Shown here one piece after another: positions 9,693-54,690 of a DNA stretch of 64,000 nucleotides. The number at the start of each line of letters is the position of its first letter. The stretch's first letter is position 1. This DNA is from Chrysoperla carnea (lineage: Eukaryota; Arthropoda; Insecta; Neuroptera; Chrysopidae), in contig NC_058342.1 in assembly GCF_905475395.1 (NCBI RefSeq), positions 29,050,640-29,114,639 on the forward strand. Direction: 5' to 3'. The position numbers and the translations under genes are program-made. The notes under the pieces were generated by a model, which was not told the DNA's origin, did no database searches, and saw only the letters and a program-made list of their open reading frames with translations.

Positions 9693-12600
9693 TTAATAAC
9701 TACTGTCTGTTGGTTTTATTCGTAAAATAACCGGAACACTAGTACATGGTAAAATAGCTAATTCGGTTACAACGGCTGTTACTAAATCGGATGGTGTTAC
9801 GTCGTATGTTAAACTTAACGGTATCACGGTTGATAATTGATCACTATCGGGTGTTTCATCAGTTTTATTGATCAATAATCGATCTGGATCCGCTGTAAAC
9901 AAAAGAAATATAAAATAATTAGTAAACATTTTCATGATATATTCTCAGTTTATACAATATATTTAAACAATTTACTCTATTAGTTGTTACAACAAAAGGT
10001 CCGAAGTTAAAAAAACTTTGGGATGTTGGTCAGGGATGGTTAATTAACATTTTAAGAAGCTCGAGGATTGTGTGAAAAGCGGAGGGGAGAGAAAACTGAA
10101 AAAATTTGGATTTCTCTCCGATTTCCCTTCAATAACTTCCCATAATTTTTTTGGAGAATGTTTCGTTTCGATTTCTTACAATTATTCAAACATGTTTGTA
10201 CATCAATTCGTTATCGAGATATGACGCTTCAAAAAATGGTCATTTTTCAAAATTTGCTAAATTATGCATTCGCGAATTATGGTTACAATCACTAACTTTT
10301 CGGAGAAAATCATCAGACTTGTGTTTGATTGTAGGAGTTGAAGCAGGTGAACTAACTGTAATGAAAGCCAGGGAGGAAAAAGTGTTTTTTACGCAATTCT
10401 AAATTAGAACGCCTCTTAAAAATATGTTTGTGTGTAATTCAACCTTTATTGACCCTGTGCGTAGTCATGGTAGAGAGAATCAGATCGACGCGAGTGCTTC
10501 CGATGGATAATTTTGACAATAAAGGAGGCTGTTATGATTAATTTTCAATTGTTTATTTGTAATTTGTAATCTTATATGCTATCCATAGATTAATATGTCC
10601 ATCCATACAATTATATTAATAAAGTAGGGTGTCGTTACTATGGTAACTTCCTGAAATAAAACTCATGCACGAAGCGAATAGTAAAAATGCAAAATGTACC
10701 TACCAATTTCATTATAAACAAATGAATCTGTTTGGACTCGTTCACAGAATTTATACGTTTCACAACATACCAAAACAGGTACATTATGAGCTTTTGCCAT
10801 AAGTGCAACTTGAGCGGTACCAGTACGTGACATCACATTTCCGTTGGCAAGTAATGCATGCGCACCGAGTAATACTTTACTAACGGATGCCATAATGAAA
10901 CTAGTTGTTGCAATTAAAACGTATGTACATTTAATACCAGCTGCTACCAAATGACGTAACATTTCTTTACCCTCTAAAAATGGACGGCTATCAACGACCA
11001 CGACTCGGAAAGTTTTACCGCTTCGATGTGCATCCAATAAGATATGTTTAATTAACGAGGAACTGAAAAAAACAGAAGCTCATGAAAATTTTAAATTCAT
11101 TGAAGTAAAAAGTGATAATAACTTACCATCCATATGTTAAAATCGTATCACCATTAATAATTTTCGGTTGAACCGTTATACTAATCGCTTGCCCAGCCAT
11201 TTCAATTTGTTCTTTAATATACGTATTAATCGCATCCGTTAAAATATTCGACGCTTGATCATCACTAACATTATTCGGCAACAACGTTAACTGATACTTA
11301 AAAAATCGTAACGCATTTGTCATGGATACAGAAATCGGTCGACATGAATGTAAATATTGCACACATTTCTTTAACGTGATCTCTAAACTCCGTCCATATT
11401 CAGCTTGAGTCGGTGTTTTAAAATCTTTGACCATATCTTTAATTGCAACTAACATGGCGACACAACGAGCATTCGATCCAAATATTACACCTTTTTGATA
11501 TTGGATACCGGTACGGATCATTGCCGGATGAATGCCATCCGTATCAGATACATGCGCAGTACGTTGATCTCGATCGATGTATAAATGATTGAATAAGATT
11601 TGTGCTTTGTGTTGTAATGGAGATATTGTTGATTTTTTTATGGTGGATTTTAATGGAGTCGCAGTTTCTGTTGGTTTCTTTTCTTGGGCAGTTGTGGTTT
11701 TTGATTTATGTGGTGTTTCTGGAACTTTCTTTACAGCCTAAAACGAAACAATAATAATTTTGAATAAACTATCCAATGAAAATTCGATTTTGAAATCAGA
11801 AGCTACGTAGAAATGTAAATGGAGTTTCTACAGACTTCTATTCTTTCAGCCCCCCAGACAAAAAAAAGAAGATTTTCAGCCAATTAACAGATAGATTTTA
11901 ATATATGCAGGGCTTTTAAACAATTCAATATGTTTATACTTGTTATAAGTATATCTATTTAAACTTACCGCAGCAGCTTTGGCGGCACGTTGAGCCTCCT
12001 GTTTAGCACGTCTTTCAGCACGAAGTTCTGCCTTACTTTTACCCTCATCATTATTCTCCAAACTTTGCTTACAATCATCAGTCAAATTTTCCAGCTTAAT
12101 AGCTGGTGATTTTCCCTCTGAACTTACTTGCTTTGCAACCGTTGGTGGCGGTACTTTTTTAACTTCTACAGGTGCAGTTGGTGAAGTTGGGCTATCACCT
12201 TGAGTTTTAACTGACGATTTACGACGAGCTTCCTTTTTCTGTGGTTCACATTTTATTTCATCTTTGGGACTCTTATCCACAATTGGAGGAGATACTATTT
12301 CATTTTTGGAAACGGTTTTTGTGGGTATTCCACGAGCAAAATCAGGTGTATCGACAAACTGAGGTGATTCATTTTGAGCTAGTTTTATTGGTGCTGCTTT
12401 AATGGGTTCTGTAGTCTTTTTCGATTTTTTTGCTAGTTTTTTCGCTTCTCGCTCCGCTAAAATAGTTGCACGATCTTTAACCGGTTTCTCACTCATTTTA
12501 GTAGCGTTAATTTCGTCTTCGGTTTTAATACGTATGGTCTGTTTTTTTGCATCTAATATATGTCGAATTACGTGTTGTTCCAATTTATTTACGAATAATT

Positions 12601-15600
12601 CGTTGCGTTTGTTTCCACCAGATGGTTTTTCTTCTTCTTCGTGATGTCCCGAATATGAACAATAATGTAAATTTTCGTTACCTACTAACGGCAACCGTAC
12701 ATCCACACGATTGTGGGAGCAATTATTGTGAGTGGTAGCGGCTGGGAATGGAATATCATTCGAATTGTTTACCAAATCCGCATTATCTTTTTTATATCTA
12801 CGTATTCTAGATGTACGTTTTCGTTCGATTTTCTTGGTTAATTTCGATGATATTACAAGGGAATCACCTCGTTCTCGCTTTTCTAAATTTGGATCATGTT
12901 TTTTACCCAATAATTGTGTGAAATCAAAAGAATCGTTTACTGGTTGAGCTTTCGGTTGAACGCCTATTATTTTAGGAGCAACTTTTGTTGGAACAAATTC
13001 AATTGTTTGTATTTCATTCGATGTTTCTGGATTACGTAAACGATCTTTGGCACGTTTACGGCGTAATTGACGGCGTATACTATTTGATAATTTTCCTTGT
13101 GCGTTATTTTCTACACATTGTTCATTTTCGGTATTATTTTGTAAATTTTTTTTCTAAAAATGAGAAAATATAAAAAAAAATTATTATTTTTTTTGGGGAT
13201 AATGAAAGTTTTAGTTAGAGATTGCTCATAAAATACGTAACGCGAAATTTATTAAATCCCCCTCCGGTCGTTGTCATATTTTTTATTATAATATGACAAC
13301 AGACGATAGCCAAAGATTTTTTCACTAGAGGTATGCATTGTTATTCCAGTAATATCGTCGGGTAGAAATAATTTTTGTATTGGTTTTTGGATTTTCAAAA
13401 GCAAAAGGGCCCAAACATTTTTTTTTTTTTTGAGTTGTATAAAATACTGCATGGAATTGATCTGGGGAATCGATCTTTGTATGAAATTTTGAATAATATT
13501 TCAAAAAGTATTCTTCAAATCTTCAAAATATATCCGATTTTTGTATTTTTTAGGTGAAAATTACCTTTAAAATCGAAAAAATAACAACCATTTTTGTTTC
13601 GGGCAAGCTCTGTGTCCTCTTTGAGAACAACCTGTCACCCGAAAGCGAAACGTCTTATAAGAGATACTATTTTAAGCAGATTCCCCCGGGTTTTTCACCG
13701 AAATTTCTCTCAGAATGGATGGATCCAAGGTTTCGGACCAGAACATTCTAAATCTTACACCCTGCAGGTGCAAATAACATGTATAGAGATTCCATCGTTC
13801 TCCATACAGGCCCTACAAGTGGCGGAAGTTCAATTGACAGTGTAGAGTAGAGACTCTTCTCAACTATAAAACCAACAAAACTCAAATCTATTTGCCAATT
13901 GATAGGGTAGTTTTAGCGATATTTCCTGAAATCTCTCCCAAAGTGAAATTACTTTAAATGAGTTTTGTGATCGTTGAAATCATTTTGTAACGCTATTACG
14001 TACTTTATAAACAATCTCTAAATATAAATTTTGAAAAGGGAAAGTTAGAATCTAGCCGAAAATCAACGTTTTTAAATTCAAACTACTTGGGAATTAATAA
14101 GTTTTATAAAAGTAGCTTGCCAGAGTAGAGTTTCGGTCGGACTCAACACTATGGATTTTACAATGTTTCGATTCAGAAGCAATTAATATCCCCCTTAATA
14201 CGATATCTATATTTACGGGGTCCGCTTCTTTATGTCGGTGTAAACATTGAATAACTTTTTTATTTGTCAACCGATTGATTTGATTAGACATACTTTTGAA
14301 ACCGAAACAATTTAACGTTCAGCTGTACTAACTGCATGCGCAAACCGTGGCCAACAGGCGTGGTCTCATAACACTATTCATTGTTTGGTGTCATATTTTG
14401 TTGAGCACGAGACAGTGGGAGATCGTCTACATGCCATTTATCACGACCAAAACGTTCCAATGAACTGGTTGGATCGTTACCAAACATTCGCTTGAACGGT
14501 TTACACTGAACTTAACTTTCTTAAGCAAATTGTGATGACTGAGGAGGCCTAAATAAACAAAATTGACTCATTTGGGGATCCGAGAATCCACACGAGATTC
14601 ATGAAAGACCATTCAATGCCCAAAAGTGACTGTTTGATTGATGTTGTATTCAAAAACTAGTCCAATAAAAAAACCTCATGTACAGAAATCGGTTATCGGT
14701 TGTGTTTTTTCAATTATTCAACGTTTACATACCGAAATAAAAAATGACACATCCGTTAAATATTATATGGAAAAGGGTAATTTTCTAGAAATGGTGCTAT
14801 TTTCCATAGTTTCTACCCAACAATATATAGTCGACTTGTCATCATTTCGTTCAGTACATGCACGAAATTTTTTATTGAAAGTCCTAATGTCGAATGCCAA
14901 ACGTCCGTCGCAAACCGACAAGTCATAATGTTACCCAAAATGGTAAACCTTTACGATGCATGGAGTGACGAACGAATCGGTCTGAAATGAAAGTATAAAA
15001 ATCTGGTCTAGTTAATAATTTTCCCTGAAAAGAATCTGACATTTCCAGATTTTTAATGTTTTTCAAGTGAAAGTATAAAAACCTGGTCTAGTTAATAATT
15101 TTCCCTGAAAAGAATCTGATACTTCCAGATTTTTAATGTTTTTCAAGTTGATTGCCACCCCGCATAAATCTCTTGATACGGTGCCATACTTTGACGACAG
15201 ATTGTCACTCGAGGAAATACGACGTAAAAAGAAAATTTTTCAATATTTTTCTTAGTTTTCGAGATATTAAAAAATTATTATTTGGTAATTGTGTTCCCTT
15301 TCCCGTTAAGAAATTCACTATTTAGCAAAAAAAAGCACTTGTCGGATTAGAAAATACGACAATTCTACGAGGGGTAAAAACCAATTCAGCCCAAACCAGG
15401 CTCGATAACCACTCGACCCAAATAAGCTTGCCCATACATAAAACTGATCGAAAATTACCAAATTTGAATTCTAGATTTCGATAAGAGACCCGAGACTATA
15501 ATTATGATTTTTATCAAAATTTAAAAAGCCACACTTCTAGATAACTACCCAGAAAAAAGTATTAACATTCCTTTTTCGATTTAAAAAAACCCAAATCCTT

Positions 15601-16925: not shown

Positions 16926-17400
16926 TCGATTTGCTGGGACCGTAAATTGCACATCGGTACAAGTGCAAAAAATCGGTTTTTGGATAACACAGCCACATAT
17001 TCAATTTGTATGGAATTTTTTTTTGAAACCTTCTAATTTTGTGATACTCTTTTCATCTGCGATGTTAGTTTTTTGCTACAATTAACCTTTGTGCTAAAAG
17101 TCGGGACCAGGACCACACATTCTTGAAACCTATTACAGTGTGGTTGAATTTGACCAGAAATTTGAAAAGTATGACCCAAATTTAGTTGGGTTACATACTT
17201 GATTTATCAAAATTGGATATAATTGGGAGGTGATAGAGAAAATTAAAATTTTTTGGATTTTGATGACGTCACAAAGTTCAAAAAATCGATTTTTGGATAA
17301 CACAGCCAAATATTATCCAATTTGTATGGACTTTTTTTGAAACTCACTAATTTTGGGTTACTCTTTTGGCCGGTGATCTTAGTTTTTCTGCTGATATATA
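16926..17400. repeat. Satellite-like repeat, ~1.5 units
   Basis: Contains GGGACCAGGAC, CACATTCTTGAAACC, GGATAACACAGCC and a GATGTTAGTTTTT block. The order is the same as in the ~315-bp tandem units at 62041-62835. Confidence 0.7.
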
Positions 17401-17909: not shown

Positions 17910-19587
17910 TTAGTAGCATAATCCCCCTCTTCCTAATACTCCGGCTCCAGCGAGACTATTGGCAACACCGGATACACTGCCTAAACCACCAAGACCGGAT
18001 ACGCCAGCAAGGCTAGATGATTGACCATAAGCACCACCAAGACCGGATACTCCAGCAAGGCCAGATGATTGACCATAAGCACCACCAAGACCGGATACTC
18101 CAGCAAGGCCAGATGATTGACTATAAGCACCTCCAAGGCCGGATAATCCAGCAAGGCCAGGTGATTGACCAAAAGCACCACCAAGACCAGCTACGCCATA
18201 AGTATCAGCGGAACCATAGGCAGAGGTACCTGGATAAGATGGTACATATGAACTTCCTACACCACTTCCACTTCCCAAACCACTTCCGAGTCCTAAAGCG
18301 GCAAGTACTGCTTGGTTGTTGACATTCGATACAGCATTACCATTTACGTTGGCATTTACGTTAGCGTTGGCATTTTGGTTAGCATTTGCATTTTGGTTAG
18401 CGTTTGCATTACCGTTGGCAGCAGCGTTGCCGTTAGCGATTGATCCAGATAAACTTCTTCGGAAGAAGACTGGACTCCTTAAGAGACCGGTTCCACCGAA
18501 GATTGAGTTGATTAATGCAATGTCTTGTGCCGATGCTTGAGCGTTGCTGTTTGCTGCAACGTTAGAGTTGACATTAGCGTTGACATTAGCATTCGCATTG
18601 GCATTTTCGTTTGCATTGGCATTTTGTTGAGAGTTTGCTTGAGAATTCACGTTGGCGTCTCCTGCTGCGTTAGCTTGTCCATAAGCAGCACCATATTGTG
18701 GGTATGGGTTCGCCTGAAAATATAATTTATTTGATATTAAATGTTTTCTGGGTAGATTTTGCCAAAATCGAAAATACCCTTTACCTAACAAAGAGAGCTA
18801 AGTCAGACAAATATTTAGAATAAAAGTTTAAAAGTAAAAATGTTCTTTATAAAAAAATAAACAACTTTTGTTTGAAACATTTTTTCGTAGACATCTATAA
18901 AATATGTTACGAAGTTAATTTCCGATAAAGTTGAAAATTTACCAAGAATTCGAAATACATATCATCAATTGTATATCTTTAATTATATATAATTATGATC
19001 TCATTTTCAAAACGAGATTTATTTCTTTCTATGCATATCTGAATTTCTAAACCATGAAGGTTATAAAGAAGGAGAACGATCGCTACGTGTTAAAGCATTA
19101 GCGCGTCTGTCCCTGAAAATTTGTAGAATTTATAGTTCATTTTTCAGCCACCAGCCGCGCTGTCATCATTAAGTAGTATCTGCGAAGTTAGCTGTTTATG
19201 AGTACAAGTAGATGAAGTTAGTTGCATAATGTACAAATTGATATATCATTTCAAATTAGCGCACAACAGCCCGCTTTTATTGATACAACTTAGCGATCGC
19301 AGCGCCTCACTTATTTTGCCCATATTCTCCTTCTCCTTCTCGTTCTCCTTCTTTATAACCTTCATGTTCTAAACTGCGAGTGATAGCAAAAAAATTGAGG
19401 AGAACATATCCCTTTTAAAATCGATAGCCCTTTCTAGGAAAACTATTAGATCTTCGAAATTTGAAGCCAAAAATTCAAAAATTCAAGGCAAACGATTGAA
19501 AGTATAATTGAAATAAACAATGATGGAAAAGAAACTTACCAATACGGCGGCCAAGCACGATAAACAGAAGAATACTTGAGAAATCAT
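17910..19587 (-). CDS. Secreted Asn-Ala / Gly-Ser repeat silk-like protein, 2 exons, 283 aa
   Basis: Probable silk or adhesive structural protein. Exon 1 (19587-19540) codes a 16-residue hydrophobic signal, MISQVFFCLSCLAAVL. Exon 2 is 18713-17910, joined in phase 0 and opening ANPYPQYG; cleavage probably falls at the A-N bond. Residues 47-79 are an Asn-Ala run ending VNANVNSNV. Residues 80-111 hold DIALINSIF and FFRRSL. Residues 112-149 are a second Asn-Ala run ending VNANVNGN. AVLAALGLG follows, then a Gly/Ser/Tyr segment. Residues 192-255 are four 16-residue repeats of the form GLGGAYGQSSGLAGVS (48 bp in DNA). The end is GRGGLCY, with a lone Cys one residue before the last. The Asn-Ala, FFRRSL and LAALG parts are shared with the divergent gene at 24669-28443. 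I do not recognise a named orthologue. Function is inferred from composition, signal peptide and neighbour. Confidence 0.85.
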
Positions 19588-19686
19588 TGTTGGAAAATTG
19601 ATTTTTTGTAAAAAAGTTCGAATTGATTAAAATAATTGTAATCTTCGTTGATGAATAGCGGATGATATTACAAGAAAATCGCTTCG

Positions 19687-19694
19687 TTTATATA
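19687..19694 (-). promoter_or_regulatory. TATA box of the Asn/Ala-Gly/Ser gene
   Basis: TATATAAA on the minus strand, 107 bp before the ATG at 19587. The spacing nearly equals the 108 bp of the partner gene, and transcription would start about 30 nt downstream. Confidence 0.6.
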
Positions 19695-19699
19695 TACAA

Positions 19700-20764
19700 A
19701 TGAAAAACTGCAGCTCAAATTGACTACGGTGATTTTTTTTAATCAGCACATTATTAAATTTTACGTTTCATTAGTTGTTTTAGACTAGACGCTGGAAGGA
19801 ATTTTCATTTTTTCGTGTAAAATATGAGAACTGCTAGCTAAGTTTGCATTCATATTCTAATAACCCCAAAGAATGAGGAAATCCATTTTGACAGGCAAAA
19901 ATCTGGTCTAATTTTTTTAAATCAACTGTCAAATCTGAACTTTTGGAACCGAGTAAGGATATTTTAGATTTTTGTGTCATATAAAAATTTTAATTCAAAA
20001 ATTTGTTTCCGGGATATTAACAATTTAATGTAATGTGTTTTTCATTTTTGAGTTAACGGGCTCGCGGAATGACGGACAAACGGAAATGGACTAATTAGAT
20101 GAATTTATGAACACCTATACCAAAATTTTGTTGGTAGCATCAACATTTCTAAGATTTACAAACTTGGGCTTAAACTTAATATCCTTCATATATGGGGTAT
20201 AAAAATTGGATTTGATTTCTGGCAACTTGGGGTTTTTCATCCTTCGGGATATAAGGACACATTTTACAAACGATATTTCTTTTAGCGCCTGTTCTATATA
20301 TTTCACGGTGTTAAAAGGTACTTGAATTACAACACCTGTGCAATTTAATTAAAAAAATATCAAAATACTTAAAAAAAAGATTTATGCGTTTAAGAAAAGA
20401 AAAATAATCAACAAGTATCCGGGTGGTGTTTTTGGAATTTAATTTATATGTGGGCATACAATTTTTTATTTTATCATAGTCGATTTTTAATATATCAGAT
20501 ATTTTGATAATTATAATACAATGAAAGAAGCTGTTCATGTGAGTGCAACTCTTATATACTATGTTTGCCATAAGAACTCCATGCTAAATTCTGTTTTGCT
20601 AGAAAGAGATAATAATAAACCTTTGATGGATTTTATCTTGGTTGTTTTTACATTTATTCGAAAGATATTTTTTCTCTGCTATTCATTACATTAGTTACCT
20701 TTTATTAAAGCAAAAAAAAAAATCTTATTGTCAAAAAAATTGTCGTAATTTCAGATATCCATTG
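19700..20764. other. Shared upstream region, left part; no gene seen
   Basis: Part of the 5 kb between the two divergent silk-like genes. AT-rich, with no supported coding frame. Minus-strand frames of 63 and 86 codons at 20115-20571 lack domains or a signal peptide and were not called. Confidence 0.45.
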
Positions 20765-20809
20765 CCGGAAATGTGAAAATCAGACGGCACTGTTTTTTTG
20801 CTTTCGTAA

Positions 20810-21026
20810 TATGGAGGGTAGAGATAAGGAGAACTATCTTAAATAGGAGTTAAAGTAAAAAAGTGTCCATCTAAAAACAGCAAATAACAGTTACAAAATT
20901 GGCCAGAATGGCGCTTGTGTAGCAGGAGGTGTTTGATGTGAAATTTTCTATCCTTCTCGAACAACTCTTTTAGATCTTTACACTTTTTATATACAGAGAT
21001 GGTTCTCCTTATCTCTACCCTTCATA
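20810..21026. mobile_element. hAT-like MITE, 217 bp, with 8-bp target duplication
   Basis: The 25-bp ends match as inverted repeats with one mismatch: left TATGGAGGGTAGAGATAAGG, right CCTTATCTCTACCCTTCATA. Flanks are TTTCGTAA (20802-20809) and CTTCGTAA (21027-21034), 7 of 8 identical, typical of hAT insertion. It interrupts an older repeat that continues on both sides and is uninterrupted near 8975-8995. Confidence 0.85.
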
Positions 21027-21082
21027 CTTCGTAAATCAACCCCTTGTACCCCTCTCGGCACCCACGGTGGTGATTTGAATAA

Positions 21083-21601
21083 TAAGGTATTATCGTTAGT
21101 CAAAAATAAATCATGAAATTTGAAAAAAGTTAAAATTTATGTAAAAATATACTTAAATATTCTGATTTCGAGTCATAAAAGCACATTTTTCTTTTATAAT
21201 ATTAAAATTAAAAATCGTAGTTTTTAAACTGTATATCACGTGACCTAAAACGCGGGTAAGCCCTGCTGTAATGTCATAGCGGTATGAGTCATAGACCATC
21301 AGTTAGTTCAGTGTAGACAGTTGAGTATAATATATACATAGATATGTATTTATATTTATTATAATCAGATGTCTATGAATGCATCTGTCAAACTTATCTG
21401 TGTTATTTCGTATAATAATACCGATATTACATCATCAAATTGGATGCCTGAATTTTTGACAGTTTAAAAAAGGTTTAAAAATTAATTTTAAGTTTTTGGC
21501 AGGAAAGCGTGTGTATTTTTCTGAAATAAATTTTTGGTGGCTTTTTATTAGCAATATCAACATTTTGAAGTAATTTTTCAAAAATAGTAGAATACCCTAT
21601 T
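21083..21601 (+). mobile_element. Repeat E (MITE ~515 bp), copy 1
   Basis: Matches 47012-47535 along its full length in opposite orientation. The ends read GGTATTATCGTTAGTC and GAATACCCTATT, giving a short AATAGGGTATT-type inverted repeat. It contains a CACGTGACC-like stretch and several ATAATA tracts but no coding frame. Confidence 0.75.
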
Positions 21602-22618
21602 GTACTATATGATTTATAAAAGAAAATTTTTAATTATTACATTTAATGATTTGGTTAAGAGTGAATTTACCAAGCAATGGTATAAATCATTGTATACGCG
21701 AAAATTGTTATCATAATAACCGTAAAAAAGGGGAATTAATTACAATAGATTTATCAACCGGATTTTAATACACAGTACATAAAAAATAGAAACTAACCAA
21801 ATACATACATAACTTATTTCTAGCATTTTTTCTTTCTGTAAATTAATCTATAATCTAATTTTTTATTAATCAATTATAAATTTGTTATTTTTAGATTGTA
21901 TATACCGGATACCAGAAAAATTCGTGTGCGTTTCATTAACCAAAACGAATTTTTCTTTTTTTTTTATGTTTATTGATAAATGAATTTCATCACTTTGCTA
22001 TTTTGATCTTTTTATTATAAGCTTTCATTTAGTTTCACCTGCCCCGTTGTCTGTCTGTAATCAAATTTTGCAAGTCAAATTTGATCCACTTCCCGGTTTA
22101 CGATTGAGCTGAAATTTTGCATGCCCATTTAATTTGTATGACAATGCATGGTAAGGTTGTGGCGTCATGATTTTCCCATCGCTTCCACCATATTTGATAT
22201 ATTCATAAATTTTCCTTTAGCCTTAAATTAAAAATTTTAATTGAACTAAAACACAAGCTTTTATTGAACTAAAAAGTAGAAAATAATGTTATCTATGAGT
22301 CACTCATAACCGACTATTTGTAAAAGCCTGAGGCGCTTAATATCAAGAATGAATCGAAAAATAATTAAGCATGTGGAGTAGATGTGGGGTTCCGATTCAT
22401 TTTTGATATTTTAAATTGAGCGCCTCGAGCTTTTTCTTAAAATCAAAAAAGTCGATTTTTTCTTTTCCAATACTTGTCAAATCAACACCTGAAGATTCTA
22501 AAAAAAAAACCACGGGAGTTGACTTATTGAAATTTGTTGGAATGCAAAATAAATTAATTAATTGTCATATTTGATATAATTAATGCTAAGAAACAGTTAA
22601 TTCTGATTTCTGAATATG
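21602..22618. other. Intergenic, no gene seen
   Basis: AT-rich sequence between two mobile elements. A fragment near 22035-22200 (TGTCTGTCTG then TTTGATCCACTTCCCGG) looks like another dispersed repeat. Nothing coding. Confidence 0.45.
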
Positions 22619-22622
22619 TTAA

Positions 22623-24302
22623 GGAGAGTGACTCGCCAGTAATAGAAAAAAATAAATTTGTAGATAATATTCGAAATTTTTAGTATGTTACAGTTAGCAA
22701 AACATATTATTATATTTTAAAAATATTGGGGCATCTTACCGATTAATTAAGAGAGTAATTAATTAAATAAAAATTTACTACGTATCATAACCTGTTATGA
22801 GAATGTTTATGTTATTTAGTATATTTTTAATTAATTAAACTTCTTAATTGATCAGTAAGATACCCAAATTTTTGTTTTATACAGGTTTCGCATTTAAGAT
22901 GAAGACATCCTCACACTTTCGTCATTTAGAGGAATATCAATTTGAAAAGTTTCACTGTCATACAGGGGGATAAGTCACATTTTTAAGTTAATTTTGAGCC
23001 AAAAATTTCAAAACTCGAGTCCATTTCACGAAAGTTTTGAAAGAAAAATTCATTTAGGAGAGTAGGTAGTTTTCGAGGTATTCGCCTTATATTTGAGGCC
23101 ATATTTTCAAAAATATTTATCCGATCGTCAAATGAACCTGATTTTCGCATTTTTTGGGTCATATTTACCTTATAAACCAAGTTTTATCCAATTCTGAGAG
23201 TAAAAAATTTTTTCGGTTTTTTCGATTTTTTTGAAGGGGTACCCCTTAAGAAAATTGCAAAAAATTGAGAAAAAAATATTATTTCCGATTTTGACAAAAC
23301 TCAGTTTATAAGCTAATTTTGCCCCAAAAAATTCAAAAATCCCGTTAAATTCGCAATTGGGACGGTAGTTTTCGAGATATTGCAAATTCGCCCTATATTT
23401 CTGGCCATATTTCCAAAACTACTTATCCGATTGTTAAATGAATCCGATTTTTGGATTTTTTGGGTCATATTTACCTTATAAACCAAGTTTTATCCAATTC
23501 TGAGAGTAAAAAATTTTTTCGGTTTTTTCGATTTTTTTGAAGGGGTACCCCTTAAGAAAATTGCAAAAAATTGAGAAAAAAATATTATTTCCGATTTTGA
23601 CAAAACTCAGTTTATAAGCTAATTTTGCCCCAAAAAATTCAAAAATCCCGTTAAATTCGCAATTCGGACGGTAGTTTTCGAGATATTGCAAATTCGCCCT
23701 ATATTTCTGGCCATATTTCCAAAACTACTTATCCGATTGTTAAATGAATCCGATTTTTGGATTTTTTGGGTCATATTTACCTTATAAACCAAGTTTTATC
23801 CAATTCTGAGAGTAAAAAATTTTTTCGGTTTTTTCGATTTTTTTGAAGGGGTACCCCTTAAGAAAATTGCAAAAAATTGAGAAAAAAATATTATTTCCGA
23901 TTTTGACAAAACTCAGTTTATAAGCTAATTTTGCCCCAAAAAATTCAAAAATCCCGTTAAATTCGCAATTCGGACGGTAGTTTTCGAGATATTGCAAATT
24001 CGCCCAATATTTCTGGCCATATTTCCAAAAATACTTATCCGATTGTTAAATGAACCCGATTTTTGGATTTTTTGGGTCATATTTACCTTATAAACCAAGT
24101 TTTATCCAATTCTGAGAGTAAAAAATTTTTTCCGTTTTTTCGATTTTTTTGAAGGAGTACCTCTTCAGTGACGAAAGTGTGAAGGTTTCTTCATCTTAAA
24201 TGCGATACACTGTATAATATGTTTCATTAATTATAACATACTAAAAATTTGTATCATTATCCACTAATTAATTTTTTTTCTATTACTGGCGAGTCACCCT
24301 CC
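22623..24302. mobile_element. TTAA-flanked inverted-repeat element carrying a satellite, 1680 bp
   Basis: TTAA lies directly on both sides (22619-22622 and 24303-24306). The outer ends are GGAGAGTGACTCGCCAGTAA and its inverse TTACTGGCGAGTCACCCTCC. The match goes on inward over about 120 bp, and a second inverted block begins CGCATTTAAGATGAAGA (about 22888-22925 against 24169-24206). TTAA duplication is the mark of piggyBac-type transposition. No transposase is present; the inside is a 306-bp tandem array. Confidence 0.85.
22975..24165. repeat. 306-bp tandem satellite array inside the TTAA element
   Basis: The landmark GGGTCATATTTACCTTATAA recurs at 23156, 23462, 23768 and 24074, exactly 306 bp apart. 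The middle units are almost identical and the first one is diverged. Three 71-codon minus-strand frames repeat with the same spacing; they are by-products of the array, not genes. Confidence 0.95.
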
Positions 24303-24560
24303 TTAAATGTGTTAGAAATTAATAATTGCATTAAGCATCGATGTAACGTAAATGCATACAATTAATTAAAGTAGAAACAAAACAATTGAATGTTTAATAA
24401 TAATAAACAGCCGTAGTTTGTAATAACAACGATTCACGATGGTCCAACTTGTAAGAAGATATTGATTTGTTTTTGATTTTAGGATTTTCCATTGAATGTG
24501 CCATGACGCAAAATCAAAACTCAACGAACTTGATAGAAAAGTGTGTTACTAAATTTTTAC

Positions 24561-24567
24561 TATAAAA
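24561..24567 (+). promoter_or_regulatory. TATA box of the Ala/Gln silk-like gene
   Basis: TATAAAA, 108 bp before the ATG at 24669. Spacing and context mirror the divergent partner gene. Confidence 0.65.
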
Positions 24568-24668
24568 ACCAAATGTACATTTGTTAAAATTCATCTGGTG
24601 TGAGTGATTTTTCATAGAAAGATCATTATAAATATCGGTCTTAACATCAATAACATTCATTTACAACA

Positions 24669-27600
24669 ATGGGAAAATCACTTATATTGTTGAGTATCAT
24701 TGCCCTTACGGCTTTGTGTACTTCCGTAAGTACATTCTTTAATCATTACAGAACTCTGTTTTATTTTCTTTATGGAAATAAAAATACTTTTGTTTTAAAA
24801 AACTTTTAGGTTTATCCATACTCAGTGCCATCATTACCAGGATCAAAATATGGAAGCGCAGCAGCTAATGGAAATTCGGCCGCGAATGGAAATGCTAATG
24901 AAAACGCTAATGCCAATGCTAATGAAAATGCTAATGCAAATGTTAACGCAAATGTTAACTCAAATGTTAATAATGAAGTTGCATTGAATTTACTTGCTTC
25001 AGGAGGATTTGGAGGATTATTCAAAGCAGGTGGAGGTATGGGAAGTTTTGCGGAGGCTGTGGTAGCTGCACAATCCGCAGAAAATACTCAAGCAAGTGCT
25101 GTAGCAAATGCTGCTGCACAAGCCAGAGCCGCTGCTGAAGCTGCTATACAAGCATCACAAAGTGGAGATAGTGCTCTAACATATGTACATGCTCAAGCTG
25201 CAGAAAAAGCCGCCGCTGAAGCTCAAGCTGCTGCTCAAGCTATATCAAGTGGATCATCTGTCTACGCTGCTGCTCAAGCTCAAGCTTCCGCTGCTGCACA
25301 AGCAGCTGCCAAAGCTTTAGCTCTTGCACAGGCATTTGCCTTAGCTGGAAGTCAAGCAAGTGTAAGCGGTTGGCCTCAAGTTGGTGTCCAAGCTGATTCT
25401 CATGTGGAAACTGTAACAAATGCTGTTGCTAGCGCCGCTGCACAAGCCACTGCTGCTGCTGAAGCAGCTGTTCAAGCCTCACAAAGTGGAGCCTTTGCAC
25501 AAGCTGTGGCACAAGCCCAAGTGGCAGCTCAAGCTGCTGCTCAAGCAAAAGCCTCAGCGCGAGCCCTTGCCTCTGGATCACAAGCATATGCTGTTGCTCA
25601 AGCTCAAGTATCCGCTGCTTTACAAGCTGCTACCACTGCCCAAGCCGTTGCTCAAGCTTCTGCTACAGCTAATGCAGGAAATTCTGCTCAATTAACTGCT
25701 GTAGCTAATGCCGCAGCTCAAGCTACCGCCGCTGCTGAAGCTGCTGTGCAAGCATCACAAAGTGGAGCCGTTGTCCAAGCTTTTGCTCAAGCTCAGGCGG
25801 CTTCACAAGCTGCTGCTCAGGCCCAAGCCGCTGCTCAAGCCATTTCAGCTGGAACACAAGCATATGCTGTTGCTCAAGCTCATGCATCCGCTGCTACACA
25901 AGCAGCAGCCACAGCACAAGCCGTTGTTCAAAGTTCTGTTTCAACTAATGTCGGAAGTGCTGCTCAAGTAACTGCTGTAGCTAATGCCGCAGCTCAAGCT
26001 ACCGCCGCTGCTGAAGCTGCTGTGCAAGCATCACAAAGTGGAGCCATTGCTCATGCATTCGCCCAAGCTCAAGCTGCTTCACAAGCTGCTGCTCAAGCTC
26101 AAGCCGCTGCTCGAGCCATTTCATCTGGATCACAAGCATACGTCATTGCACAAGCTCAAGCTTCCGCTGCCGTACAAGCAGCCACCACAGCTCAAGCTGT
26201 TGCACGAGCAGCTTCTAATGTTGAAGCTCAAGTTCAATTTCAAGCACAAGCTCATGCATCAGCTGTTGCTCAAGCGGAAGCACAAGTTCAAGCTGCTGCA
26301 TCTGCTGCAGCCTCTGCGGCATCTGCAGTAGCAAATACTTATGCTACAGTCCAAGCTGGGTCAGCATCCACATCTGCCGTCGCTGAAGCCAAAGCTGCAC
26401 AAAATGCAGCAGCTCAAGCAATTGCACAAGCTCAATCAGCTCAAGCTGCTGCACAAGCAATTGCTCAAGCAGGAGGCTCGTATGCTCAAGCTGCTGTGCA
26501 AGTAGTCGCTCAAGCTCAAGCAGTTCAAGCTCAAGCTGCACAAGTTGTAGCTCAAGCTGAAGCTGCTGTAAATGCTGCACAAGCCTATGCAAGTGTTTAT
26601 ACCAATGGCCAAGGACAATCTCAAACTCTATCTCAATCCCAAGTATCAGTACAAACTGTAGCCCAAGCTGCAGCGCAAGCTGTAGCTAAAGCACAATCTG
26701 CCGTAGCTACTGCCCAAGCTGCTGCACAAGCATCTGCATCTGGAGCTGTAGCACAAGCTGTAGCTCATGCTCAAGCTGCGCAACAAGCAGCAACACAAGC
26801 TGTTGCTGAGGCATCCGCAGTACAAGCCAGTGCATCTGCTCTTGCTCAAACATCAGCATACGGATCTGCAACTGCAAGTGCAGCGGTTCAAGCTTATGCT
26901 CAAGCCCAAGTTGCCCAACAAACAGCTGCTCAAGCAATTGCACAAGCACAAGCTATAACTTCTGGTAGATCTGAACCTTCTGGATTCGCTCTTGCTAGAG
27001 TACAAGGATCAGCCCAAGCTTATTCATCGGCTCGGGCAGCAGTTTCTGTAGCAGCCCAAGCTGTAGCAAAAGCCCAAACTGCCGTCGCTTCTGCTCAAGC
27101 TGCTGCACAAGCATCTGCATCTGGAGCCACGGCGCAAGCTGTTGCTCAAGCTCAAGCCGCCCAACAAGCAGCCACGCAAGCTGTTGCTCAAGCATCTGCA
27201 GCACATGCAAGTGCATCCGCCATTGCACAGGCATCAGCAGCTGGATCGGCTGCCTCCAGCGTCGCCGCCCAAGCAATTGCACAAGCTCAAGTTGCTCAAC
27301 AAACAGCTGTTCAAGCAATCGCACAAGCGCAAGCTGTCGTTGGTGTTTTAGGTAAGAAAAAATAATCTAAACGTATTTGTTGTTTGTAAAATTGAATTGG
27401 ACATTTGTTAAAACTGAATGAAAATTTTATGTATTGGAGTGAATAAAATGAATTGATAAAATAAAATTGTCTATAATTATAAAGAGGTTATTAGTAGATT
27501 TCTTACCTCAAAACACTTCGTAACATTCGTAGATGCATCTGCGAGTGGCAAAGCTGCAGTCACTGATGAAGGAGCAGGTTTCGCTGAATCTGCAGTGGCT

Positions 27601-28443
27601 CGTGGACAAGCTAGTTCTTTTGCACAAGCAAATTCTGCAGACCAAGGAGCAGCTTCTGCCGCAGCTGCTGCTGATTCAAGTGGTAAGATTCGTTACAAAT
27701 GAAATTGTAGCTAAGAGAGTTTAAGAAAGTTTCAAAAAGGAGCCAAAGCGATCTATTTAGATCCTGTCTGTCTCTAAGGGTAGGGCCGTGCTCATTAGAT
27801 TGAACGTGTATTTTAGCAAAAACTTGTTAGGAATTAGTAAAATCAGATTCTTTCAACAGACGCTTAAGAAATGCAGAAGGAGAGAAAAATTCCAACATAC
27901 TTGTTTTTTAAATAAACAATTTTTGTTAGAAACTTAAAGCTAAGTTAGTTGTTATATTCTTAGTTTAGTTTTTTTAATTGTTTAGTTTCTAAGTTTAAGA
28001 CTGAAATCGTTAGCTGATTAATACAATTTTAGCTGAAAAATAGTGTGTTGATAAATACAAACATTCCGATTAAATCTTATCGATATCAGTAGTTTAAATC
28101 ATAAATTTTATTTACAGATAACAAAGCAACAAATTCAAATGAGGAAGCAAATGCCAACGCAAATGAAAATGCAAATACCAATCAAAACGCTAATGCCAAC
28201 GCCAATGCAAATGTCAATGCCAATGTTAACAGCAGCTCAAATGCTGATGCTCTCGCTGTAATCAACTCCTTCTTCCGACGGAGTTTAAATTCAGGTGCAC
28301 ATAGTAATTCAAATGCTCAAGGTAATTCAAATGCTCAAGATAATGCAAATGCTAATGAAAATGCAAATGGCAATGTAAATTCGAACTCGAATTCAAATGT
28401 TGATGTCGCTATGTTATTGGCTGCCTTAGGATACAGGACCTAG
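24669..28443 (+). CDS. Secreted alanine/glutamine-repeat silk-like protein, 4 exons, 1024 aa
   Basis: Probable fibre-forming silk protein. Exons: 24669-24725, 24810-27351, 27533-27682 and 28118-28443, 3075 coding nt with GT..AG borders and phases 0, 1, 1. Exon 1 is a signal peptide, MGKSLILLSIIALTALCTS. Exon 2 opens VYPYSVPS, followed by an Asn-Ala run ending VNANVNSNVNNEVALNLLAS. About 750 residues of Ala/Gln/Ser repeats come next: 92-residue units in the first half (276 bp apart in DNA) and two ~127-residue units in the second half. Exon 3 is a linker beginning DASASGKAAVTDEGAG. Exon 4 holds a second Asn-Ala run, ALAVINSFFRRSL, a third Asn-Ala run and VAMLLAALGYRT. The mature chain has no Cys. 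The composition predicts long helices. Green-lacewing cocoon silk is known to include an Ala-rich helical fibroin; identity with it is untested. Confidence 0.87.
27352..27465 (+). terminator. Possible intronic polyadenylation region giving a short silk isoform
   Basis: If intron 2 is not spliced, translation ends at 27363-27365 after VLGKKK, making an 870-residue form. AATAAA occurs at 27442-27447 and 27460-27465 inside the intron. That form would lose the Asn-Ala/FFRRSL cassette. Confidence 0.4.
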
Positions 28444-28654: not shown

Positions 28655-29170
28655 GATAATTAAGTGAGGTCGAGTACGTAAATCAGTAACATAGGTCAAT
28701 TGTTAGAGATTCAATAAAGTTAAAGTAGAAAAAATGTTCCTTATAAAAGAATAAACAACTTTTGTTTACCCTTGAGGGCGCAAATTAGCTTAGAAACATA
28801 CAGGGTGTTCTGTTATTGACTGCAGAACTTTCACTTCCTGAATAAGCTGAGAAAAAAAAGAAGAAAATTTTCTTTACCAAATTTGAATCTGAAGCCTAAT
28901 TTACGAGATAATTATCCAACTCTTATTATAATCAATTAATAAAAAATACATTCCTCATAATAAAATTCATCCAATAAAACACTACTTAAACTTATGTATG
29001 TATTTGTTTGTTTATAACTACATACACTGAGAAAGTGAGAGGAAAAATATTCGTATTACTTTGTGTGTAAGAGTGGCTATATTTATTTACTTACATGACG
29101 TAAAAAAACAAACAAATGCGTAATCAACACGTCTTTGCATGGTATTTCAACAATTATTCAATTAATTAAT
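28655..29170 (+). repeat. Dispersed repeat D copy with an inserted ACAGGGTGTTC element
   Basis: Blocks such as GTGAGGTCGAGTACGTAAAT, TTCCTTATAAAAGAATAA and GCATGGTATTTCAACAATTA match 54380-54690 and 60530-60735. The stretch 28799-28990, beginning ACAGGGTGTTCTG, is foreign to the repeat and is shared in reverse with 40370-40525. Confidence 0.6.
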
Positions 29171-41007: not shown

Positions 41008-44000
41008 TCACAAATGATGTAGAAAGTGCCAACTGGATGTTGATCGAATTATAACTCGATGGAGTACTAATATTGTTGATAGAATTATTAGTACAGGACT
41101 TGATGTTGTTTGTCTTTGTTGTGCATTTATTTTGGCTGGAATTACTTCAACTTCAGCCATTTTAAATATTGATAGGAGTAAATGTGAGTTGAATTCAGGA
41201 TGTTGTGTGTTGATTTTTTCACTTATATCTTCTAAAATTTGTGCACATTGTTCCTGAAACACGCAATAAAGTTTTTAATCATTTCCAGAGGCATTGTAAA
41301 ATTCAAGGTAAAATAAATTATTTCGAATAAGAAAGAACAACTTCAATTAAGGATGTACGAGCATCAAGGAAATTTTAAATAAAAAACTTCATTTTTTTAT
41401 ATGAAGTTGAACTAGGTTAGGTTAGGTTAGAGTGGCTGTCCTGGGGTGGGACACACTTAGACCATAGGGTCCGTTGTGATACCGAAAAAGGGTTGGTCCA
41501 TCCCCGGCCACTACTCCATGAACCATTTGGAGCTGTTTCAGAACAGCAGGAGGAGTTTGACGTTGACAGACTTTATGTCGGAGAGGACGTCAAAGAGACG
41601 CTGGCTCAAGTAAGTCCATCTCCTCATGGAAACAGCTGGGCAGTGACAGAGAAGATGAGACATTGTCTCCTCGTCCTCACCACTGTGACAGCTCCTGCAC
41701 TAGTCGTAATACACTGCCAGCCCCAGGCGTTCAGCATGCCTGCCGGCCAACCAGTGTCCTGTAATAGCCGCAACAACTTTGCTAATAGAGGCCCTTGGAA
41801 GTGATATAAGATATTCGGAACGCCTACGATTGTACTCAGACCATATCTGCCTTGTAGTACCACAAGTACGTTCCTCCCTCCATATAAGATTGGCCTCTTA
41901 TAAGATATCCTCCTTGAGGTGCAACTTGCAGTTCGCAAATGGAACTCGCAAATGGAAGTTGGACTAAGTCTAAATTGATCCTGAAAATTTTAGGGAGGAT
42001 TATCCGATTATTTTAATAAATAAATGACTTCAAAAGTAGATATATTTACTTTAACCTTACGGGAAAATGGTAGATGGAAAAAATGAAATGGGAAAATGGA
42101 TTTTTAAGTATCTATGAGTGGAAAATTTATCAATTCAAAGAAAACTATCCTGTAATAATTGAATGATTTTTTAATGCTTACTTGTTCTTTTATTAAAATT
42201 TTTGTTTCATCTTCTTCATCATCATCTCGAATTTTCGCCACTAAGATTACGTTGGCTTTTGTAACGTTAAAAATTGATAACTGGCATGAAGTCTGTAAAA
42301 ATAACAACAATTTGGATTATTAAATATTCCACTCTGAAAGTTCAAAATTTTGGCATTGTAATCCTTACCTCATGCATAATCAGTTCTTGTAAAGATTGTA
42401 CAACATCTTGTACAGATAAATTACTGTGCGGCTTTAATAATGCTTCATCGGTTTCACTGTATCCTAAGAATAAGAACACTCCTTGCGGAAGCTTATATTC
42501 ACCTGGAATTATCCAACAAAAATCATTAATTTTCTATAATTCGAAAAAAAAATGTAGAATCTTACCAGGTGTGGGTCTCATGCAGATGAATTGGCCCGAA
42601 TAACAAAGACATCGACCACGGTATGCTTGGTATGCAGGTGCTGCATGATTATAGAATGCAAATTCAGTTTTACATGGAATACGATCAACGCATATTGTGT
42701 GACATATTACGATTAATGATTCTGCGCACTGACATAAGTCAGAACATTCTAGTTCATCGTCTCTATTCAGCTAAAACAAAATTTTTTACAAATTATGAAA
42801 CATGTATAAAAATGGTTTTAAATTTTCCTAAAAATGAGTCCCAAAATAACTGATTATTTCTTTTCCGAAAGAGAAGAATCTTCCGAAAAATGGATTATTG
42901 TTAACATTCACCGCATTTGCTCAAACAGCCGGACTACTTTAAAGTAGTCAACCTGATTTTGAATGAACCAAAAAAATTGTTCTTACCCGTTTACTTTTAC
43001 CCTCACGTATGTACTGAGTTGTTTGATGTGGTTTTTGAACTACACAGAATCCTAGAAACAAATAAATTTGGTAAAAATACAATTCAAAATTATTCCAAAA
43101 AAATTTATTTACTTGGTGGTGTTGTTGAAGTTGTGGTCGAAGTCGTGGTTGTAATCATTTCGGTCGTAGTTGGTTCCGTTGGTTCAGTGGTTAAAGTCGT
43201 TGTTTCCATTGTGATGGTAGTAATTGGAGCCAATGTAGTGGAAAGTTGTATTCGAGATCGCCAAGTAGAAGCAATTGGTTGAATTGTGGTCGTTGGCGTT
43301 GTACTCATTTTTGCTAGTTCAATCGCTGCATTCTTTATATGGAAGTCACTTTGTGATTGAACTGAAAATAAAAATTTATAAGTAACATTCAAATACAATC
43401 AAACCTTGGTAAGTGTGACCTGGATAAGCGAAAAAACTCTACAAGTGAGAGTGAAAAACAGAAACCTTTAAAGAGAAAGTTCGCTTATCCAGGATCTACA
43501 GGTTTTTTTGTTGAGCGTCGCCTCAATGAAAACTTACCAACACATGGATTTACCCATAAAAGTCTTTGCCATCCCAAACAGTCATACAGTTGAGTGAAAT
43601 CAGTCCCTTTACAGCCACATGTCGTTCTTAATTCTGTGCCTAAAATACCTAACATTGCTGCACGACATTCTGACGGAGGACCAGCACATTTCTTCGTGGT
43701 ACTATCAACAGCACATGATTGTTCATAAAATTCTAAACGAATTCTAGATAAAAATAAATTGGTTAGAAATTATGAGAAAGTAAAATTTTCCTTGCAGATA
43801 CTTACTTGCAATCAATGTCTTTGCGACATTCCTCAGCCAGTGTATGACATGGAGGCAAAACTTGATTACCTTCCACTCGTTGCGCACATATTGGATGTAA
43901 TTTTTCTTGGGCCACTAAGCAAGCGTCTTGTTTATTTTCGGATGTCCTAGAAAATTAAAATTAAAGTCAATGCTTTACGTAGAATTTACTTCGGAGCGAG

Positions 44001-44938
44001 TACAAGAAGGATTTATTATGAGGTTCAAGAAATATAATTTATAATTTCGCGGTTTGCTAAAGAACGAGCACAATTCCCAGTCCCACACATTTTTATAGGC
44101 GTATAGTAAATTTTAAGGTCAGTTTTTATAGCGAAATTCAAACATGTCGTTACGGGTAAAATGATCCCCTTTATATAATCTAAAATGATCCCTATTTTGT
44201 GTGTAACATTATAATAGATAAAATGATCCCCCATCATTAACGGGTCTTCAATGTGTTGATTTAGATCAATTTACCAGTGATTTTTATTTTTATACTAATT
44301 GTTGATGCAATGCAAAAAAACAATTAATATTTAATGTGAACTATTTGATAAAAATGCAGAGGGATCATTTTACCCACTATCCTTACAAGGTCGGTCGAAA
44401 TAATCCCTTTTGAAAAATATTGAACAGTTCTAAAAATTTGAACAGATCAAAAGAAATTTACATATCAATATTGTAACATTTGAATAAAGAATTCGAAAAT
44501 ATTCCGACGTTGTACATCGAATAGTTTGGCTATAAATTACAATTTTTCTTAATGGGATCATTTTAGACCACCTTCCCCTAATTATTTCGTAGCTTGTAAT
44601 TATTTTACTGAAATTTTAATTAGTTTGTAACACAATTTTACCATGAAAACTGATTATTTCAAAATGAAAACCAATTAATCTTCACAGTTGCATATAATAT
44701 TTAATAAATAATATTTCTTACTTGCACAAACAGAATGCAATCTCTAGACTCCATGATAATTCCGGTTTACGATATAAATTTTGTAATGCTTCCATACAAG
44801 AATTTCTATGACACTGTGATGTGTCACAATGATGTAATACTGGTTGTAACGCCGCTCGACACATGTAGTCATTATTACAATTTTCTAACGCTAAGTGACA
44901 TGTACTTTTGAATGCAAATTTTGTAATATCTGATGGAC
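41008..44938 (-). CDS. Gfrl: GDNF family receptor-like protein, 9 exons seen, N-terminus missing
   Basis: Cell-surface receptor of the GDNF receptor alpha-like family. Minus-strand exons: 44938-44722, 43946-43806, 43743-43538, 43361-43113, 43051-42987, 42770-42566, 42502-42369, 42292-42182 and 41253-41008. All are GT..AG with matching phases and give 523 residues. Exon 1 seen here has the Cys pattern of a GFR-alpha domain: C-x6-C, CRAAL, C-x4-C-x4-C, then FCLCK. Exons 2 and 3 form a second such domain (LPPCHTLAEECRKDIDC, then CRAAMLG, CGCKG, LYDCLGW). Exon 4 is a Thr-rich, mucin-like linker. Exon 6 is a third Cys-rich domain ending GRCLCYSGQFICMRP. The last exon ends in a hydrophobic stretch (VLIILSTILVL), suggesting a lipid or membrane anchor. 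The first visible exon is entered in phase 1, so at least a signal-peptide exon lies upstream, either in 45-64 kb unrecognised or outside the window. Confidence 0.85.
41414..41960 (-). mobile_element. LINE 3' end, longest copy, inside a Gfrl intron
   Basis: On the minus strand, frame-shifted translation gives VVAAITGHWPAGRHAERLGL, then CRSC, then EETMSHLLCHCPAV, the end of the RNase H region of R1/LOA/Jockey-type non-LTR retrotransposons. The 3' UTR ends in three CTAAC units (41414-41430). It lies between the last two Gfrl exons, in the same direction as the gene. Confidence 0.8.
43410..43500. mobile_element. Very short MITE in a Gfrl intron
   Basis: CTGGATAAGCGAA (about 43418) and TTCGCTTATCCAG (about 43482) are exact inverted copies. 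Pogo/Tigger-type small elements have such ends. It is non-coding and sits between the exons at 43361 and 43538. Confidence 0.5.
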
Positions 44939-54169: not shown

Positions 54170-54690
54170 TTATGCAAGGTATACTAAGTTTAGTCCTAAG
54201 TTTGTAAAGCTTAAAAATATTGATGCTAAGCAAAAAATTTTTGTATAGGTGTTCATGAAATCACCTAATTAGTCTATTTCCGGTTGTCTGCCTGCCATCT
54301 GTCGTCTGTCTGTCCGTCTGTCATCACGATTATTCAAAAACGAAAAAAGATATCAAGCGTGCTTAGGACGTAAAAAGTGAGGTCGAGTTCGTAAATGAGC
54401 AACATAGGTCAATTGGATCTTGGATCCGTAGGACCCATCTTGTAAGCCGTTAGAGATAGAACAAAAGTTTAAATGTAAAATATTCCTTATAAAAGAATAA
54501 CCAACATTTTTTCGTAAAAATCACTGTTTAGCCGTGAGGTCGCAAATTAGTCGTAAATTGTATAGTATGTAATTATGGGAATATCAGTTATGTATGTGTG
54601 TGTAATGTGATAGAATCATCAACACTGTCTATGCATGGTATTTCAACAATTAACTCAATCAATTGTTTGTTTTCACTTGTTTAGGTATGG
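54170..54690 (+). repeat. Dispersed repeat D, fullest copy
   Basis: Runs from AAGGTATACTAAGTTTAGTC through CTGTCTGTCCGTCTGTCATC, GTGAGGTCGAGTTCGTAAAT and CCGTAGGACCCATCTTGTAA to GGTATTTCAACAATTAACTC. Other copies: 7706-8230 (split), 28655-29170, 50215-50440 and 60530-60735. No coding frame, so non-autonomous. Confidence 0.7.

Follow-up and report, generated by a model that had tools for sequence, protein, structure and literature searches.

The stretch of Chrysoperla carnea DNA analyzed here (64,000 nucleotides of contig NC_058342.1, referred to below as the window) carries two divergent genes, A and B, whose proteins combine different bulk repeats with a common Asn-Ala cassette. Judged by the sequence of the linker within it, this shared cassette is a case of homology that goes beyond low complexity. 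We consider it rather likely that A and B are a diverged gene pair for secreted structural proteins of the silk or egg-glue type, in which the module that builds up the cassette serves self-association. Silk would be the likeliest use of such a pair, followed by egg glue.

Two divergent genes and a recurring Asn-ladder module

Gene A comprises two exons on the minus strand (19587–17910) and encodes 283 residues, corresponding to ~25 kDa. Gene B comprises four exons on the plus strand (24669–28443) and encodes 1024 residues, corresponding to ~95 kDa. All introns are of the GT-AG type and keep the frame, and the first intron is of phase 0 in both genes—with the splice sites placed by eye and checked by frame and phase, not by cDNA. 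These gene models bear out the sequence-only reading that preceded this analysis, which had described a divergent pair with a signal-peptide-like exon split off by a phase-0 intron in both members. The N-terminal hydropathy amounts to 1.68 across residues 1–19 of A and 1.90 across residues 4–22 of B, and both proteins are apparently secreted. The features of the two genes are as follows, in window coordinates.

Gene A
19540..19587, minus strand: exon 1, signal peptide MISQVFFCLSCLAAVL, phase-0 donor next
17910..18713, minus strand: exon 2, includes the stop codon
18558..18623, minus strand: Asn-ladder run 1, 11 alternating Asn
18498..18521, minus strand: hydrophobic patch 1, IALINSIF
18468..18503, minus strand: 12-residue in-frame segment IFGGTGLLRSPV, missing from B in the A/B alignment
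18450..18467, minus strand: FFRRSL, sole dibasic site of protein A
18333..18416, minus strand: Asn-ladder run 2, 14 alternating Asn
18291..18305, minus strand: hydrophobic patch 2, LAALG
17985..18188, minus strand: Gly/Ser/Tyr 16-residue repeats, 48-bp unit, 4.2 copies

Between the genes
19588..24668, no strand: divergent intergenic region from A to B, separating the start codons by 5.1 kb

Gene B
24669..24725, plus strand: exon 1, signal peptide MGKSLILLSIIALTALCTS, phase-0 donor next
24810..27351, plus strand: exon 2, N-terminal module and Ala/Gln repeats
24885..24974, plus strand: Asn-ladder run 1, 15 alternating Asn
24975..25001, plus strand: hydrophobic patch 1, EVALNLLAS
25421..26203, plus strand: 92-residue (276-bp) repeats, 2.8 copies
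26670..27351, plus strand: 127-residue repeats, two copies (alignment starts 26670 and 27051)
27352..27532, plus strand: intron 2, read-through stops after LGKKK at 27365
27533..27682, plus strand: exon 3, 150 nt, flanked by phase-1 introns
28118..28443, plus strand: exon 4, carries the C-terminal double module and the stop codon
28150..28233, plus strand: Asn-ladder run 2, 14 alternating Asn
28252..28275, plus strand: hydrophobic patch 2, LAVINSFF
28270..28287, plus strand: FFRRSL, sole dibasic site of protein B
28342..28401, plus strand: Asn-ladder run 3, 10 alternating Asn
28417..28431, plus strand: C-terminal hydrophobic patch 3, LAALG

All elements of the cassette as it had been described before—the Asn-Ala runs, VNANVN, IALINSIF or LAVINSFF, FFRRSL, and LAALG—are found in the two proteins. 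The succession of INSFF and FFRRSL needs a correction, as both strings are present but the FF that they share in B had been counted twice. More generally, the cassette splits into five copies of a smaller module, each composed of an Asn ladder and a short hydrophobic patch. In every ladder, Asn occupies each second position, with 10 to 15 alternating Asn per copy (the runs were selected by this alternation, and the patches were matched by eye). The cassette is indeed common to A and B, but the smallest shared unit is one such module, five in all; likewise, its location in A and in exon 4 of B was seen correctly, but a further Asn-Ala module near the N terminus of B had been omitted. Protein A carries two modules, both N-terminal to its fibre part, and protein B carries one module ahead of its fibre repeats and two after them.

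The patches read DIALINSIF and QAVLAALG in A and EVALNLLAS, DALAVINSFF, and DVAMLLAALG in B. VNANVN lies close to the end of the ladder in four of the five modules, its place being taken by VNSNSN in the last. An alignment of all five modules shows 12 invariant columns (11 Asn and one Ala). The double module of A matches the C-terminal double module of B, with FFRRSL between the copies in both, and in a three-way alignment, the N-terminal module of B aligns with the second copy of A. On the level of codons, Asn is written in both of its codons and Ala in three or four within the Asn-Ala stretches (counted over codons 1–130 of A exon 2, codons 1–65 of B exon 2, and B exon 4); hence, these runs do not represent a recent, uniform expansion.

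Since Asn-Ala runs by themselves prove little, the linker between them was chosen for a test of homology, its segment ends being picked by eye. Residues 69–112 of A and 953–985 of B align with a score of 62, which is reached by none of 5000 shuffles (mean 25.5, standard deviation 4.8, maximum 50.5), and on the DNA level the region reaches 42.7, which exceeds the null maximum of 35.4 (1000 comparisons). The alignment leads from LINS via 12 residues present in A only to FFRRSL—a single in-frame indel of 12 residues. Unfiltered tblastn connects the A core to B at E 1.1e-5 and the B core to A at E 0.002. As a background control, gapped scoring of the B linker was extended to the 64-kb window as a whole, translated in six frames (8514 peptides). 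Hereby, the A linker is the best non-self place for it (68.5), and all 16 peptides among the matches listed lie in or overlap the module regions of A or B. A scan of the 17-residue core with stricter gaps does not single out A, which scores 31 next to 32 for a stretch at 34.2–34.3 kb, as is expected if the 12-residue indel must be paid for. Neither tblastn nor the linker scans found a third copy of the cassette in the 64 kb.

Could the likeness of the cassettes nevertheless be convergent, that is, Asn-Ala low complexity made by slippage? The runs are of low complexity, and their best matches in the PDB are the NANP repeats of malaria (E 3.5e-6 for B exon 4 and 6e-5 for A), which we regard as compositional. 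The strict-gap scan fits this explanation as well, and so does the codon agreement across the whole alignment of A with the C-terminal part of B, linker included, in which codons are shared at 32 of the 62 identical residues with ~29 expected from codon usage. The linker speaks against it, both by the shuffles and by the DNA-level match, and within its core, seven of the nine INS-FFRRSL codons are identical where 3.3 are expected (P ~0.01). Also, the order of run, patch, FFRRSL, run, and LAALG is identical in A and in the C-terminal part of B. We therefore hold convergence to be highly improbable; the unrelated low-complexity run that the sequence-only reading had named as its own possible undoing is not what the linker shuffles and the DNA comparison return.

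Synonymous change is saturated in the A/B alignments, with dN values of 0.37 for A versus the C-terminal and 0.47 for A versus the N-terminal part of B. A dating of the duplication as old, based on these saturated sites, was considered and dropped, since it is uncertain in which register the Asn runs align and seven of nine codons of the core linker are identical. Either the linker would have been held at the DNA level or exchanged between the genes, or else the runs would have been reshuffled by slippage.

Bulk repeats, alternation, and a proposed assembly

The repeat units reported earlier are confirmed. A bears 4.2 copies of the 16-mers, and B bears units of 92 residues (85% identity) and of 127 residues (82%), the identities being those of the best 80-residue windows. 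Exon 2 of B is composed of 41% Ala, 15% Gln, and 10% Ser. The dN/dS ratios between B units are low, amounting to 0.22, 0.11, and 0.25 in three comparisons of the 92-residue units (76 of the 92 residues) and to 0.16 for the 127-residue pair across 97 residues. These values would fit a protein under selection.

The Gln residues of B prefer even spacings. Their even/odd ratio of 3.05 compares with 1.01 ± 0.11 for shuffled sequences and is reached by none of 2000 shuffles. Because residue shuffles ignore slippage and the kinship of tandem copies, the analysis was rerun with one copy per unit, which gives a ratio of 2.26, again reached by no shuffle (0 of 5000). In the 127-residue unit alone, the Gln alternation is weak, with 332 of 5000 shuffles as high. 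Alternating-Ala runs of length at least six are observed 20 times, versus at most eight in any of 1000 shuffles. B is not a pure (QA)n sequence. The claim that the two fibre parts are wholly different hence holds by sequence, but the B repeat shares its two-residue alternation with the cassette. Such an alternation suggests an arrangement that would set Ala on one face of a β-strand and the amides on the other. A further feature common to both proteins is the Arg-Arg of FFRRSL, the only dibasic pair in either of them, which weakly suggests a processing site.

A picture of the assembled material might be drawn as follows. A and B would be exported by their signal peptides and deposited on the outside of the animal as a solid akin to silk or glue, with the body of this solid formed by the Gly/Ser/Tyr 16-mers of A and the Ala/Gln units of B. 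Through the module, chains of A and of B probably would bind both like chains and one another—with the Asn side chains of the ladder hydrogen-bonding along one face and the patch adding hydrophobic contact. The Arg-Arg of FFRRSL may be processed, which would part the two modules and thereby time the assembly. Anchoring in a membrane via the patch was rejected. A patch measures ~8 residues; past the signal peptide, hydropathy over 19 residues peaks at 1.25 for A and 1.31 for B, with ~1.6 being the usual threshold for membrane segments. Of the earlier proposal of a common assembly or anchoring module, the shared and homologous non-fibre module stands and an assembly role is plausible, but anchoring in the membrane finds no support.

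A number of points weigh against this picture. The dN/dS values stem from the better-aligned part of the B units with the first, more diverged copy excluded, and homogenization among tandem copies could affect them. The longest alternating-Ala run of B has a length of 14, which lies inside the range of the shuffles (maximum 15), and Gln is not enriched at spacing 2 (1.03) or 12 (0.95), unlike in a pure alternation. The hydrophobic residues of B show no excess at even spacings, 1939 of 2000 shuffles being as high. Slippage of hexanucleotides could yield a two-residue alternation without any selection for strands. AlphaFold (three sequences) draws the 92-residue unit of B as three helices of 19–29 residues at a mean pLDDT of 59.4; its model of A is poor (42.9) and shows the Asn runs as helical (exon 2 residues 9–72 and 104–139). 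As to the dibasic site, its conservation is known from two sequences, and the reading as a processing site is weak because shuffled sequences often contain a dibasic pair (37% for B and 5% for A).

These helices are at the center of a different explanation, by which B is an α-helical silk of the coiled-coil type and the cassette a flexible or helical Asn-rich spacer with no role in assembly. Besides the three modeled helices per 92-residue unit and the low-confidence helices on the Asn runs of A, an enrichment of hydrophobic residues at spacings 7 (1.42), 14 (1.18), and 15 (1.37) points in this direction. The polar residues add a weak period near 3.5, but this is weaker than their period of 2 (2.67 versus 4.94). 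Gln in turn occurs less often than expected at spacing 7 (0.31) and at the odd ones from 1 to 11 (0.18–0.81), with an enrichment at spacings 4, 6, 10, and 14. Also, conservation of the linker in both A and B is more than a mere spacer would need. On balance, we find the helical silk with an idle spacer somewhat unlikely. A helix in solution that changes upon hardening might reconcile the alternation with the AlphaFold models.

A bolder version of the preferred reading might be that A and B represent an undescribed family of extracellular structural proteins. In such a family, an Asn ladder of 20–30 residues, as a rule with VNANVN close to its end, plus its patch would act as a portable assembly unit placed on unrelated repeats, and cleavage at a lone dibasic site between two modules would free the C-terminal patch of B and switch assembly on. 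Zona pellucida proteins, whose assembly is triggered by removal of a hydrophobic patch, offer a parallel for this cleavage. Taken as a whole, this version is a tentative one that we would not expect to hold in all its parts. Should the module indeed serve assembly, it would be a small portable part that is compatible with chemically different fibres. This would bear on the evolution of silks—new fibres arising around a retained assembly part—and on protein materials. The same module next to unrelated repeats in two adjoining genes offers a direct test.

Gene structure and genomic surroundings

A TATA box lies 109 nt ahead of the ATG of gene A (at 19696, minus strand), and two TATA boxes at 24561 and 24627 lie 108 and 42 nt ahead of that of gene B. 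AATAAA signals are found 71 nt past the stop codon of A and 62 nt past that of B. A comparison of the two promoters gave no similarity (score 19, mean 23; 239 of 246 random stretches were equally high). Introns 2 and 3 of gene B are both of phase 1, which makes exon 3 symmetric. The reading frame runs on into intron 2 for four codons, and two AATAAA signals follow within the intron (27442 and 27460). A short isoform of B that ends in LGKKK, and that would do without the C-terminal double module, is possible.

Several repeats lie in and around the pair. Intron 1 of gene A contains a stretch of ~50 bp (18816–18873) that belongs to a dispersed repeat, further copies of which are located downstream of gene B (28716–28767, 88%) and at 54457–54512 (84%). 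The same intron holds an inverted-repeat pair (19048–19371, 94% complementary) that resembles a small terminal-inverted-repeat element, and a pair of similar appearance is found at 20802–21034 (87% complementary). Between A and B, a foldback-like element spans 22606–24319. Its inverted arms of 47, 65, and 40 nt (82–90% complementary) flank tandem repeats of 306 bp (23080–24165), which are partly palindromic themselves (~71%). A dispersed repeat of ~315 bp is present in 2.5 tandem copies at 62043–62834 with a relative at 16961–17388, the copies being 77–85% alike in the longer plus-strand matches.

Among the neighboring genes, eIF2B-delta is encoded on the minus strand at 10663–13153, with two IF-2B exons (domain E 8e-44 and 6e-16). 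Pieces of a GDNF/GAS1 domain lie at 43485–45011 on the minus strand (E 6.3e-8, with a second at 1e-3 just under the Pfam cut-off) close to a Thr-rich stretch, and a RING finger is also among the neighbors in the window. Together, these neighbors indicate an animal genome. Scans of the window with Rfam (gathering threshold) and for tRNAs gave no matches.

Comparison with known systems

Searches of A exon 2, B exon 2, and B exon 4 against Pfam up to E 10 returned nothing under 0.17, and hence no recognized chitin-binding domain in these exons. This result bears on the possibility that A and B are proteins of the cuticle, the eggshell, or another extracellular matrix, for which two features of A would speak, its Gly/Ser/Tyr repeats and a phase-0 intron that follows the signal peptide. 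In insect cuticle genes, signal peptides split off in this way and repeats rich in Gly and Tyr are common. Besides the missing chitin-binding domain, the Ala/Gln bulk of B counts against a matrix role, as it is to our knowledge unlike that of cuticle proteins. We regard a role in cuticle, eggshell, or matrix as distinctly improbable.

Other collections yielded little beyond matches of composition. B exon 2 has no match in the PDB up to E 1. An NCBIfam match of A to TolA (E 1.6e-4, 20.8 bits versus a cut-off of 213) and three weaker NCBIfam matches far under their cut-offs were rejected as compositional. In viral contigs, none of 29 pattern matches to B exon 4 and one of 46 to A exon 2 was confirmed. 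This one, at 3520–3705 of contig L001, is 48% identical to the Gly-rich residues 177–237 of A exon 2 (E 8e-6) and is probably compositional. None of the 356 (B exon 4) and 230 (A exon 2) matches in bacterial and archaeal contigs was confirmed. As these collections hold no animal genomes, absence from them says little. In the literature, no description of the cassette was found among the titles and abstract starts listed for open papers, with subscription papers and sequence databases outside the scope of the search. The literal strings NANANAN, FFRRS, AAAQAQAAAQA, and VNANVN, searched in open full texts, gave no relevant title among the matches listed.

Spider silk proteins combine common terminal domains with different repeats, and the general plan of a common non-repetitive part next to differing repeats is recognizable in A and B. 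The parallel, already drawn in the sequence-only reading, holds loosely, with the module placed N-terminally in A and toward both ends in B. In addition, the module is a short repeat, whereas the spidroin terminus is a folded domain of ~100 residues. No spidroin terminal domain emerged from the PDB searches with A exon 2 and B exon 4, which list a single spidroin, at E 2.7 to B exon 4. The silks of argid sawflies are rich in Ala and Gln and form parallel β-structures; with them, B shares the Ala/Gln-rich composition and the two-residue alternation. No paper on a silk gene of the argid sawfly type was found among the open-literature matches listed, as judged by titles and abstract starts. The lepidopteran fibroin heavy chain bears a C-terminal Cys that forms a disulfide bond to the light chain. 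B differs from it in having no C-terminal Cys—its single Cys is residue 17, inside the signal peptide, with none beyond.

The comparison extended to the silks of lacewings. MalFibroin of Mallada, one of the two nearest published designs among those consulted, is a cocoon protein of 49 kDa described as consisting of Ala, Asn, and Gly (PMC9697091). By this description, with which the comparison was made, it resembles A in being secreted and in the prominence of these three residues, but its mass differs from the ~25 kDa of A and the ~95 kDa of B. At their C termini, the egg-stalk silks MalXB1/2 and ChryC1-3 share a Cys/Asp motif (PMC5485732). The fibre part of A shows their 16-residue periodicity in Ser/Gly/Ala-rich repeats, but the C-terminal end of A, GRGGLCY, contains a Cys and no Asp, and the Asn-Ala ladders of A are not mentioned for the egg-stalk silks in the available part of that report (PMC5485732). 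The accessible parts of three further papers (PMC3280245, PMC10261109, and PMC13409908) contain no closer parallel.

The closest published design among those found is that of the louse nit-sheath proteins. According to the available part of their description, LNSP1 and LNSP2 are a secreted homologous pair produced by the female accessory gland, with alternating Gln-Ala and Gly-Ala repeats that were interpreted as β-strands (PMC6328571). A and B would resemble them as an apparently secreted homologous pair with a two-residue alternation and as a putative structural extracellular solid (PMC6328571). This likeness argues for a role as accessory-gland glue for egg attachment or egg coating, in which Gln-Ala and Asn-Ala strands would harden around the eggs as proposed for LNSP, and the Ala alternation of B with its Gln mostly at even spacings would fit this role as well. 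On the other hand, LNSP bears polyQ tracts and a polyGA domain, while the C-terminal tracts of 5–10 Gln typical of LNSP have no counterpart in B, where the longest Gln run is two; the tandem 92- and 127-residue units of B, the Asn-Ala ladders, and FFRRSL are not described for LNSP in the part available (PMC6328571). No feature of the sequence separates a glue from a silk. We consider the glue to be unlikely by itself, and the broader reading of a secreted silk- or egg-glue-type pair remains the preferred one. A and B would belong to a kind already known, that of secreted structural proteins built of repeats, and the Asn-ladder module may mark a new family.

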